Source of the DNA: a virus
Length of the DNA: 64,000 nucleotides
IMG/VR virus record: IMGVR_UViG_3300036832_001149
Location: 1 to 64,000 of that record
Strand: one strand, 5' to 3'
This document shows positions 24,557-38,407 of this stretch, one piece after another. Position 1 is the stretch's first letter; each line of letters opens with the position of its first letter. The position numbers and the translations under genes are program-made. The notes below the pieces were generated by a model. It saw nothing but the letters and a program-made list of their open reading frames with translations, ran no database searches and was not told where the DNA came from.

Positions 24557-24781
24557 TCATGCTCCTTCGGTTACTTCGGCGGATTCCAGGGCGTGGAGTA
24601 TCTCGTACAGCGCGGAACAGATGCCCTCAATGGTGGCATCCACGTCCAGACCGGACATGGAGACGACCAGGGATACCTCATCCTGGTCCGGAGCCAACTC
24701 CACCAACAGGTAGGGGGTATCCCCGATCAGCCGGTAGTGCTCATAGGCAGTGGGTTCGTCTCGGAAAGCCACGTCCTCCAT
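24557..24781 (-). CDS. Hypothetical protein
   Basis: 74 aa. Alpha/beta pattern: YRLIGDTPYLLVELAPDQDE, then VSLVVSMSG and a helix. The first 55 nt overlap the end of the SLOG gene. Function unknown. Confidence 0.5.
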   Translation of the reverse strand: MEDVAFRDEPTAYEHYRLIGDTPYLLVELAPDQDEVSLVVSMSGLDVDATIEGICSALYEILHALESAEVTEGA

Positions 24782-25398
24782 ACCGGAATCCTCTTCTCCT
24801 CGGCGGTCCGGATACAGTCTGCGGTACCCCGACCACCGGAGAAGGCCACCAGTATTCCGGGAGCGAAGTGCTCCAGCATCAGCCGGTTCCGCAGCGGTCC
24901 GGCCCGATTCCCGTAGAGGTTCCAGTCCGGTAGGTAGACCCGGACCGGACAGCCCGTCTTCACCGCCCAGCGGGCCGCGAGGGTATCGGCCCCGGCTGCC
25001 CCACCGTGGGCCAGCACCGAGATATCCAGCGAGTTCAGGGTTCGGGCCAGGTACCGGTCATCGGCGAAGTTCCGGCCTCCGGTCACCGCCACCCGTAATC
25101 CGGTCTCCCGGGGCGGGAACTGTTCCGGGTCGATGACCTTCCGCTGAGCGGTGGCCGCACATCCGGCATGCTGCAGAGCCCACCAGTTCCTCTCGGGTCG
25201 GATCAGCAGTTGACCGGCGTAGATCCGCATCCCGCACAGCCGACAGCGCTTGCCGATCAGCGACCCGGTCGCCCGGACCAACCGGACGGTGGAGGACTCA
25301 TCCTCACCCTCGGAGGGGATGAGCGGTGCTTCACCGTGGGGTGCGGCCGGACGATCGGAGTCCACTGGGGAAGCATAGGGCCCCGACCGGGTTGCCAT
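24727..25398 (-). CDS. SLOG-superfamily protein (DUF2493/YspA-like) with N-terminal zinc ribbon
   Basis: 223 aa from the ATG at 25398 (weak ribosome site). After a disordered 45 residues comes CRLCGMRIYAGQLLI...HAGC, a probable zinc-binding segment, then from about 100 the Rossmann-like SLOG core: RVAVTGGRNFAD, VLAHGGAAGADTLAARWA, VRVYLPDWNLYGNRAGPLRN and LVAFSGGRGTADCIRTAEEK. These are the signature motifs of DUF2493 proteins, thought to bind nucleotide-type ligands. The phage role is unknown; signalling-nucleotide binding or counter-defence is speculation. Confidence 0.85.
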   Translation of the reverse strand: MATRSGPYASPVDSDRPAAPHGEAPLIPSEGEDESSTVRLVRATGSLIGKRCRLCGMRIYAGQLLIRPERNWWALQHAGCAATAQRKVIDPEQFPPRETGLRVAVTGGRNFADDRYLARTLNSLDISVLAHGGAAGADTLAARWAVKTGCPVRVYLPDWNLYGNRAGPLRNRLMLEHFAPGILVAFSGGRGTADCIRTAEEKRIPVWRTWLSETNPLPMSTTG

Positions 25399-25440
25399 CC
25401 GTATGTCGGGGCCCTGCTGCGGTGCTACGCATTACCAGTT

Positions 25441-25858
25441 ATACCCGTTTGTGGAACAACCACACCAGGAAACCCTTGTCGGGGAAAGCAGTCCCCACCC
25501 GGCTGCCGGGGGCCGCAGGCGGCCCCAAAGACACAAGACCCCCAGCGCATCCTCACCAGAAAAAATCATTCCTGGCTGCATCTTCTCCGCAACGGTCACC
25601 GGCTGTGAGGGAATCCCTCGGCTTGCCCGCCTACGTCAGCGGGTTCCGGCATGGCCGTACAACCTCCACTGACGAGGGTTTGACCTCGGGGGTAAGCCGG
25701 GCTCCAGTAGTAACTTCGCAAGCTGAGGGATCGTCGCTCCGACGTAGTACTCTGGGCTTGCGTTCTAGACAATCGCCACCCTACAACCGACCTCGGTCGG
25801 GGACCAGGGCGCGTAACGCCCGATTTGGGGATTGCACCCCGGTCGGGCGTTACTTTTT
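25441..25858 (+). ncRNA. Hairpin-rich intergenic region, candidate structured RNA (or origin)
   Basis: About 460 bp between diverging gene blocks hold no convincing gene but many inverted repeats: TGTGG/CCACA (25450-25464), GGGGCCG/CGGCCCC near 25510, GAGGG/CCCTC near 25608, a branched CGTCAG...CTGACG stem (25633-25674), CGAGG/CCTCG near 25673, CGCAAGC/GCTTGCG (25717-25761) enclosing CGTCG/CGACG, and CCGAC/GTCGG near 25790. It ends in a strong rightward terminator. I could not match it to a known RNA class, and no good rightward promoter is obvious, so ncRNA versus replication origin is open. Confidence 0.45.
25813..25858 (+). terminator. Rightward terminator
   Basis: GTAACGCCCGA/TCGGGCGTTAC, an 11-bp perfect stem with an inner GGGG/CCCC hairpin, followed by TTTTT. 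It lies only 4 nt before the ATG at 25863, which is unusual. Confidence 0.8.
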
Positions 25859-25862
25859 CCCC

Positions 25863-26054
25863 ATGACGATCACCGAGCAGGCGGCGGCCCTGGCGGCCCG
25901 GTTGCCGCCCGACACGCGGGACGCGCTGGATGACTTGTATGACGAGGACCAGCGAGCAGAATGGCAGCGACGGTACTTCCTGTCCTGCGCTCGTCGCCGC
26001 CGCACAATGATCTTCTTGGCCCTCCGGGAGGCCGGGTACAGCACGTCCCCCTGA
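25863..26054 (+). CDS. Small hypothetical protein
   Basis: 63 aa with good phage codon use: helical, acidic then very basic (DEDQRAEWQRRYFLS, ARRRRTMIF). No Shine-Dalgarno is present, since the ATG sits directly after the terminator T-run; the frame is open far upstream without a credible protein. Possible DNA-binding peptide. Translation would have to be leaderless. Confidence 0.45.
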   Translation: MTITEQAAALAARLPPDTRDALDDLYDEDQRAEWQRRYFLSCARRRRTMIFLALREAGYSTSP

Positions 26055-26109
26055 GTCCGGTGAACCTTCACCCGGTTCTCCATTGGAGTCTGTCCTACTC
26101 TGGTGCATC

Positions 26110-26138
26110 TTGATCTAATCGTAATGTCCGAGTAGAAC
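26110..26138 (+). promoter_or_regulatory. Rightward promoter of the replication operon (leaderless)
   Basis: -35 TTGATC (26110-26115), 17-nt spacer, -10 TAGAAC (26133-26138). The helicase ATG begins 6 nt after the -10, so the transcript would start at or next to the start codon. No ribosome site is visible before the ATG, in agreement with a leaderless message. Confidence 0.55.
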
Positions 26139-26144
26139 TGTGCC

Positions 26145-27368
26145 ATGCGGTTGCCATCGCCTGAAGCCCTCCTGCTCTCCTCCGTCCTGAACACCTCAGA
26201 CCTCTCCGAAGCCCTGCGCCGGGGTGTGTGCCCCGAGCACTTCACCGGCTACCGGGCCGAATGGGAGTTCCTGACCCGGTACAGCCGGGACTACCACGAC
26301 ACCCCGTCCCTGGACGTGGTGCTGTCGGTCTATCCGGAGTTCCCCTACCGCACCGGGGCGACCGAGGTGGCCTTCTTCGCCGACCAGGTCATCGAGCGGC
26401 ACAACCACCGCTCGGTCAAGGCGATGCTGCTGGCCTCGGCCGACCACCTGGCCTCGGGCGACCTGGGCCAGGCCGTGTCCGCGATGCGCTCGGTCAGCGT
26501 CACCGGGACATCCCTGCCGCCGACCGACGCCGTCCGCAGCTACTGCGTGGCCGACGAACTGGACGCCGAGCGGCAGAACGCGGTCCCCTATCCCTGGGCC
26601 ACCCTCCAGTCCCACACCGGGGGGATGTGGCCCGGGGATTTCGCTGTCTTCGCCGCCCGCACCACGGTGGGCAAGTCCTGGGGGCTGATCTACGCCGCCG
26701 TCAACGCGGTGATGCTCGGGCACACGGTGCGCTACTACAGCCTGGAGATGCCGACCGCCCAGATCGTGGCCCGGGTCCATGCGGTGCTGGGCAACCTGCT
26801 CGGCTTCCGCCTGTCCCACACCGCGCTGCACCACCGCAGCGTCGACCGCATCCTGTACAAGCGGCTGCTGGCCGAGATGGAGAAGAAGGTCCCGGGCGTG
26901 TTCGAGGTGATCGACACCAGTTCCGGGCGGATCACCCCGGCCTCGGTCGCCAACTGCACCGGGGTGGACCTGGTGCTGGTCGACCACATCGGCCTGATGA
27001 GCCAGCCCGACGGCCGCCGGGCCATCGAGGACTGGCGGGTGATGGCCACGGTGTCCAACATGCTCAAGGAGGTGGCCATCTCCTCGGCCGTGCCGGTCCT
27101 GGTCGCCTCCCAGATCAACCGGGAGGGCGGTCGGGGCAAGGCACTGCCGGGGATAGCCGATCTGGCCCAGAGCGACGCGATCGGGCAGGACGCCGACGTG
27201 CTGGTGACGATGCGCCGGATGGCCGGGCCGGTGATGAAGTACGCCCTGCCCAAGAACCGGCACGGGCTGAACGAGGTGAACTTCTATGGCCGGTTCGACC
27301 CGGACTACGGTCGGCTGTCCGAGATCACCCGGGAGACGGCGGAGGACCTGTGCGATGAGACCACGTGA
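26145..27368 (+). CDS. DnaB-like replicative helicase
   Basis: 407 aa. A short N-terminal helical domain is followed by a RecA-fold helicase core: PGDFAVFAARTTVGKS (Walker A, about 163-178), VDLVLVDHIGLM (Walker B, about 274-285), VLVASQINREGGRG (motif H3/H4 region) and SDAIGQDADVLVTM. It lacks part of the usual bacterial N-terminal domain. It unwinds DNA ahead of the phage polymerase, with the primase encoded two genes later. The stop overlaps the next gene. Confidence 0.85.
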   Translation: MRLPSPEALLLSSVLNTSDLSEALRRGVCPEHFTGYRAEWEFLTRYSRDYHDTPSLDVVLSVYPEFPYRTGATEVAFFADQVIERHNHRSVKAMLLASADHLASGDLGQAVSAMRSVSVTGTSLPPTDAVRSYCVADELDAERQNAVPYPWATLQSHTGGMWPGDFAVFAARTTVGKSWGLIYAAVNAVMLGHTVRYYSLEMPTAQIVARVHAVLGNLLGFRLSHTALHHRSVDRILYKRLLAEMEKKVPGVFEVIDTSSGRITPASVANCTGVDLVLVDHIGLMSQPDGRRAIEDWRVMATVSNMLKEVAISSAVPVLVASQINREGGRGKALPGIADLAQSDAIGQDADVLVTMRRMAGPVMKYALPKNRHGLNEVNFYGRFDPDYGRLSEITRETAEDLCDETT

Positions 27369-37792: not shown

Positions 37793-38407
37793 GTGGAATC
37801 TGTGGAATCCGGTGACGAGCAGCAGAGCAACCGGGTCCTCCGATTGGTGCTGCGCCGCCCGGATGCGGAGGCCCAGGTCGAGGAGTTGGCCGCCATCCCG
37901 GACGGCTTCGACAAGATCTTCACCAAGCCCTACTACGCCCACCAGTTGCGGCTGGCCGGGCACGACTGGGTCTGGATCGCGGCCAAGATCGGCTACAAGA
38001 CCCCGTACACGGCCGAGGCGGCGGTGCGCCGCTGGCTGACCAAGAAGGTCGAGGGCAAGCACCTGCCCAACACCCGGGCGATGTTGCAAGCCGAGGCGGT
38101 CAAGCTCGACCTGGACCGGTTGGACCGGCTGATGGCCGCCTACTGGGACGAGGCGATCGGCGGTGACCTGGACTCGGCCAAGTACGTGCTCCAGGTGATC
38201 GCCCAACGGGCCAAGCATCTCGCGCCGGATAACGCTGGCGGGGTCGCGGCCGTCACCGCCCAGTTCAACACCCTGGTCGTGGGCGGGTCGGAGACGGAGT
38301 ATGTCGGGGCCCTGCTGCGGGCCCGGGATTCCCTGGGCCCGGCCCACCGGTCGACCGAGCCGGATGACGAGCCGCGCGTGGTGGACTTGGAACCGGTGAA
38401 GGAGTGA
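37793..38407 (+). CDS. Terminase small subunit-like protein
   Basis: 204 aa from the GTG at 37793 (a GTG at 37802 is an alternative; ribosome site GGGAGG is distant). The central part LAGHDWVWIAAKIGYKTPYTAEAAVRRWL is a probable HTH; LDLDRLDRLMAAYWDEAIGG and SAKYVLQVIAQRAKHLAPD match the 'le.lRlD.l..a.w..a..Gd..A...vL.I..rra.L.Gld' pattern of actinophage small terminases. It would recognise the packaging site, so cos/pac is probably nearby. Confidence 0.75.
   Translation: MESVESGDEQQSNRVLRLVLRRPDAEAQVEELAAIPDGFDKIFTKPYYAHQLRLAGHDWVWIAAKIGYKTPYTAEAAVRRWLTKKVEGKHLPNTRAMLQAEAVKLDLDRLDRLMAAYWDEAIGGDLDSAKYVLQVIAQRAKHLAPDNAGGVAAVTAQFNTLVVGGSETEYVGALLRARDSLGPAHRSTEPDDEPRVVDLEPVKE

Follow-up and report, generated by a model that had tools for sequence, protein, structure and literature searches.

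The DNA analysed here is a 64-kb window (the whole stretch that was examined) of a 75.5-kb IMG/VR virus record. Between two diverging gene blocks it contains a 464-bp interval, which a sequence-only reading had described as hairpin-rich and as either an undescribed structured RNA or a replication origin. The question is whether this interval specifies an RNA and, if not, what else could account for it. We consider a structured RNA plausible. Our preferred reading, to which we assign a probability of about one half, is that a fast-evolving divergent control region here specifies a noncoding RNA or leader that is particular to this lineage and ends at a terminator.

Gene neighbourhood and coding status

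The window encodes a SLOG-domain protein, an endolysin, a DnaB-like helicase, a primase, a DnaE-like polymerase, a tape measure protein, a portal protein and a WhiB-like protein. Judged from this gene content, it appears to belong to a tailed actinophage-like virus. The closest named phages are the Gordonia phages GMA6 and ChisanaKitsune, whose DnaB proteins are only 29-30% identical and whose polymerases are 36-38% identical. DnaB alignment retrieved closer relatives, L013 (62% identity) and L014 (58%), as well as a further set near 40%, while GenBank-scale bacterial genomes yielded no relative. The interval and the genes around it are as follows.

24727-25398 (-): SLOG gene with a YspA/cpYpsA-related domain (Pfam YAcAr), the left border of the interval
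25399-25862 (+): noncoding interval of 464 bp, delimited by gene borders and coding scores
25863-26054 (+): conserved 63-aa gene without an assigned function, which starts 4 nt after the T tract of the terminator
26110-26138 (+): likely leaderless dnaB promoter, TTGATC-N17-TAGAAC-N6-ATG, from a promoter scan
26145-27368 (+): dnaB-like replicative helicase gene, followed by genes for a primase, an ssDNA-binding-like protein and a DnaE-like polymerase

These coordinates confirmed that diverging gene blocks flank the interval, which fills the gap exactly, from the leftward ATG ending at 25398 to the rightward ATG starting at 25863. The leftward operon comprises the SLOG protein and the lysis genes. 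On the right, the 63-aa gene shares 48% identity with its counterpart in L013 and 45% with that in L014, the start codon being in register; by this comparison it is a genuine gene, and no further copies were found in the viral collection beyond those two. It separates the interval from dnaB, which has its own likely promoter, so the interval does not sit directly before the replication genes, as had been proposed.

The earlier impression that the interval holds no convincing gene was borne out: from 25400 to 25800 the codon score is below zero in each of the six frames. Two open reading frames, 25403-25672 (+) and 25432-25599 (-), were rejected as coding, both having a negative codon score and no Pfam match.

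TTGATC-N17-TAGAAC was the only promoter-like site on either strand between 25350 and 26150, and TAGAAC, TAGAAA or TAGGAA elements are found 6 nt before dnaB in L013, L014 and L015. Transcription of the helicase gene probably begins at the start codon itself, and this likely leaderless promoter would make the gene independent of the interval. Within the interval, the generic-consensus scan, which could miss a promoter, recognised none; promoter prediction is reported to fail in phage Kampy too (PMC4626039).

Terminator, competing helices and repeat

The structural elements of the interval and its left edge are listed below.

25377-25415 (no strand assigned): perfect 11-bp dyad, AGGGCCCCGAC-N17-GTCGGGGCCCT, spanning the SLOG start codon
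25401-25422 (+): 22-bp repeat, with an exact second copy at 38299-38320
25613-25626 (+): 5' strand (ATCCCTCGGCTTGC) of P1, a 14-bp long-range helix
25617-25701 (+): branched hairpin domain with the CGTCAG/CTGACG stem (25634-25639/25669-25674), whose basal helix competes with P1
25717-25762 (+): hairpin CGCAAGC...GCTTGCG, competing with P1
25718-25731 (+): 3' strand (GCAAGCTGAGGGAT) of P1, doubling as the 5' part of the hairpin at 25717-25762
25813-25858 (+): intrinsic terminator with an 11-bp perfect stem, a nested 4-bp stem and TTTTT

The 11-bp terminator stem with TTTTT noted from the sequence is present and shows the features of an intrinsic terminator, a GC-rich stem followed by a T tract. 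Its fold z-score is -4.7. It is the only terminator with a stem of at least 8 bp on the + strand of the window; four others end leftward transcripts, and six Markov controls contained no equivalent. Upstream of it there is no rightward gene to terminate, as the neighbouring gene faces left. This rightward terminator without a preceding rightward gene is the main reason why we infer a rightward noncoding transcript.

The description of the interval as hairpin-rich stood only in part. The stems that had been named are present, with the CGTCAG...CTGACG element at 25634-25674 and the CGCAAGC...GCTTGCG hairpin at 25717-25762, but the richness itself is unexceptional. The whole 464-nt interval has fold z-scores of -2.95 (+) and -3.12 (-), against -1.76 (+) and -0.74 (-) for 25416-25805, from which the terminator and the left dyad are removed. 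The excess of the whole interval is due to the terminator, the left dyad and the 14-bp long-range helix. Moreover, among 58 221-nt windows from elsewhere in this phage, eight have z <= -2, so counts of 5-8 bp stems are no evidence here; generic hairpin richness of this degree is ordinary for this GC-rich genome.

P1, absent from the stems listed in the sequence-only reading, is the sole helix of 14 bp at such spacing on the + strand of the window, against an expectation of 0.4 per 64 kb. The domain that it closes (25613-25731) has a fold z-score of -3.1, a value inflated by the region having been picked after the helix was seen; the genome-wide helix count is a fairer test of P1 than this z-score. 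The 5' strand of P1 also takes part in closing the branched domain. In the full transcript, separate hairpins are preferred by 6.8 kcal/mol (minimum free energy -124.8 kcal/mol versus -118.0 kcal/mol with P1 forced), and in the folding of partial transcripts P1 was favoured only in those ending near 25744-25752. A two-state fold is therefore predicted, in which the branched domain (25617-25701) and the hairpin (25717-25762) alternate with P1. Mutually exclusive helices, seen here in predicted folds, mark riboswitch and attenuator leaders, as does overlap of a switch helix with a terminator or a ribosome site; no such overlap was found, P1 and its competitors ending at 25762 and the terminator starting at 25813. 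Because the terminator lies outside these helices, the two folds give no reason to assume a classic attenuator switch.

At the left edge, the 11-bp dyad has a z-score of -3.6 on the - strand and is a candidate operator or 5'UTR hairpin. It is overlapped by the 25401-25422 copy of the 22-bp repeat, whose other copy lies within a coding gene (PHROG 645). This exact repeat exceeds the longest repeat in all 36 Markov controls, and an IMG/VR pattern scan found no match to it elsewhere in viral contigs.

The same slot in related phages

An Rfam search and a collection of homologous phage intervals, both proposed in the sequence-only reading, gave nothing credible. There was no match anywhere in the window to Rfam 15 at the gathering threshold, and relaxed thresholds over 25300-26150 returned only sub-threshold, chance-level matches. 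The interval had no match by blastn against phages and plasmids or, for its core stem, in an IMG/VR pattern scan, and no homologue of it was found in eight whole relative records; a single-sequence covariance model run against 68 sources detected only the interval itself. Smith-Waterman comparison with the upstream gaps of relatives, scored against shuffles, gave best z-scores of 3.9 for L013, on the opposite strand, and 3.3 for L018, which are not convincing among 36 tests once multiple testing is considered. The dnaB-bearing relatives, L013 and L014 included, thus yielded no sequence homologue of the interval.

L014 has no interval at all. Its orthologues of the SLOG gene (38% identity) and of the adjoining 74-aa gene (35%) lie on the + strand immediately before the 63-aa gene, and comparison of window positions 24557-25398 with L014:3841-4700 shows the two genes inverted. 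Since they point left here and lie on the + strand in L014, the interval is located at an inversion boundary; since L014, with 58% DnaB identity, does without any such interval, it is dispensable in the group. L013, the nearest relative with a gap, carries a different structured noncoding stretch of 348 nt in this slot (z = -3.5). Farther away, at about 40% DnaB identity, five relatives have in common an RNA of about 125 nt upstream of dnaB.

L015:3815-3940: L015-type RNA
L016:496-623: L015-type RNA
L018:4328-4455: L015-type RNA
L019:577-698: L015-type RNA
L020:4811-4939: L015-type RNA

In an alignment of only four distinct sequences, seven of the 24 pairs of this RNA show compensatory change, a count above that of all 500 shuffles. 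It has no Rfam match and probably represents a structured RNA, not described before, that belongs to this group of phages. Like the interval, it occupies the slot that separates a leftward gene from dnaB; it differs in its helices and its length, and its covariance model (R1) found no match in the interval or in the window. In L016 and L018, an HNH-endonuclease-like frame, read by eye, lies on the opposite strand between this RNA and dnaB.

Noncoding divergent gaps of 0.4-1.2 kb were also found in GMA6, ChisanaKitsune and other Gordonia phages, as well as in Cantare. Those of the Gordonia phages GMA6, ChisanaKitsune and DalanDe and of Brevibacterium phage Cantare resemble the interval in being large and in preceding the dnaB/primase block, but they have no significant sequence similarity to it, and the Gordonia phages also have intervening rightward genes. 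Taken with L013 and the L015-type RNA, these gaps indicate that noncoding, structured DNA recurs in the slot with a sequence that turns over. No pattern emerged when the DNA ahead of dnaB in relatives was scanned for perfect-stem terminators.

Possible roles of the interval

We propose that the interval may serve as a divergent control region, with the leftward operon (SLOG and lysis genes) on one side and the rightward replication block on the other. Rightward transcription of its right-hand portion would yield a branched noncoding RNA of about 200-400 nt that stops at 25813-25858. Such an RNA might be free, or it might be a leader in which the terminator restricts read-through into the 63-aa gene, 4 nt further on; the two-state fold could determine how stable this RNA is or along which path it folds, and dnaB would be uncoupled from the RNA through its own leaderless promoter. 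This reading is favoured by the sole strong + strand terminator, the lack of coding capacity, the rare 14-bp helix, the structured slots of relatives and the precedents of transcribed intergenic noncoding RNAs in actinophages WC1, Kampy and D29 (PMC10986025, PMC4626039). Like the interval, WC1 nc_1 to nc_3 and the Kampy and D29 RNAs occupy noncoding gaps at transcription boundaries of actinophage-like genomes and have no assigned function. They differ in lying at genome ends or in the middle and in having been seen by RNA-seq, whereas we infer transcription of the interval; sequence likeness to them was covered by the phage-wide blastn alone. Against an RNA stand the failure to recognise a promoter inside, the ordinary stability of the interior, the lack of a homologue, and hence of covariation, and the missing interval in L014.

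The next most likely explanation is an ordinary intergenic scar of the SLOG/74-aa inversion relative to L014, with an insulating terminator that does no more than keep stray rightward transcription out of the replication block; the remaining sequence would have no function as an RNA. The + strand position of the SLOG and 74-aa orthologues before the 63-aa gene in L014, the unexceptional interior z-scores and the lack of conservation agree with a scar; the rarity of the 14-bp helix, the compactness of phage genomes and the structured noncoding DNA that several relatives keep in the slot do not, and we hold this explanation to be possible but somewhat doubtful. Read leftward, the interval could instead act as an untranslated leader at the 5' end of the SLOG/lysis operon, a role that the ~800-nt Gordonia gap may have too. 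Its - strand folds as well as its + strand over the whole length, the dyad encloses the SLOG start codon, and the Gordonia phages have a left-pointing TTGACT/TTGACA-type promoter element at the distal end of their gap. However, no leftward promoter-like site was found here, the interior - strand z-score is -0.74 and the terminator reads rightward, and such a leader seems decidedly unlikely. The proposed replication origin fares worst. Although dnaB and the primase gene are nearby and dyads are present, the iterons or initiator boxes and the AT-rich unwinding element expected of an origin were not found in the interval (62% versus 66% GC). DnaA boxes are not enriched, with nine matches in the window against 11.8 expected and none in the interval; the GC-skew analysis that had been suggested revealed no extremum in the window, and L014 lacks the interval. 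With these marks absent, the position beside dnaB is the sole argument left, and we judge an origin very improbable.

Within the preferred reading of a terminator-ended RNA, a more ambitious version would make it a bistable regulatory RNA and one lineage's instance of a broader practice, so far undescribed, in which phages of this group put a structured RNA ahead of the replicative helicase block to time or limit the switch to replication; this extension is speculative and, on present evidence, unlikely. If transcribed, the interval would add one more actinophage noncoding RNA without an assigned function. Several lineages that have this dnaB in common carry structured noncoding DNA of differing sequence ahead of the helicase gene, and one of them has a covarying RNA absent from Rfam; the slots of these relatives are defined loci for asking what role such RNAs have when phage replication begins.

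Other elements were observed near dnaB in relatives. About 150-300 nt before this gene, L028, L045, L046 and L065 have a TATAAT-like element followed by GGGGAGGGGG(C/A)AGUAUG; this motif is accompanied by a very short reading frame and, upstream of dnaB, by a hairpin that resembles a terminator. The leftward noncoding gap of the Gordonia phages, of about 650-850 nt (L006:1790-2640 (-) and L004:1972-2620 (-)), lies behind the TTGACT/TTGACA-type promoter element and carries repeated GUACUGCGA...CACGCGAGCU motifs. Just 5' of dnaB, these phages also have a hairpin with an invariant loop, TTGCGCGA, on a changing stem (L004:3955, L006:3958, L007:3949 and, in L008-L012, near 3956), which is a possible protein-binding site.
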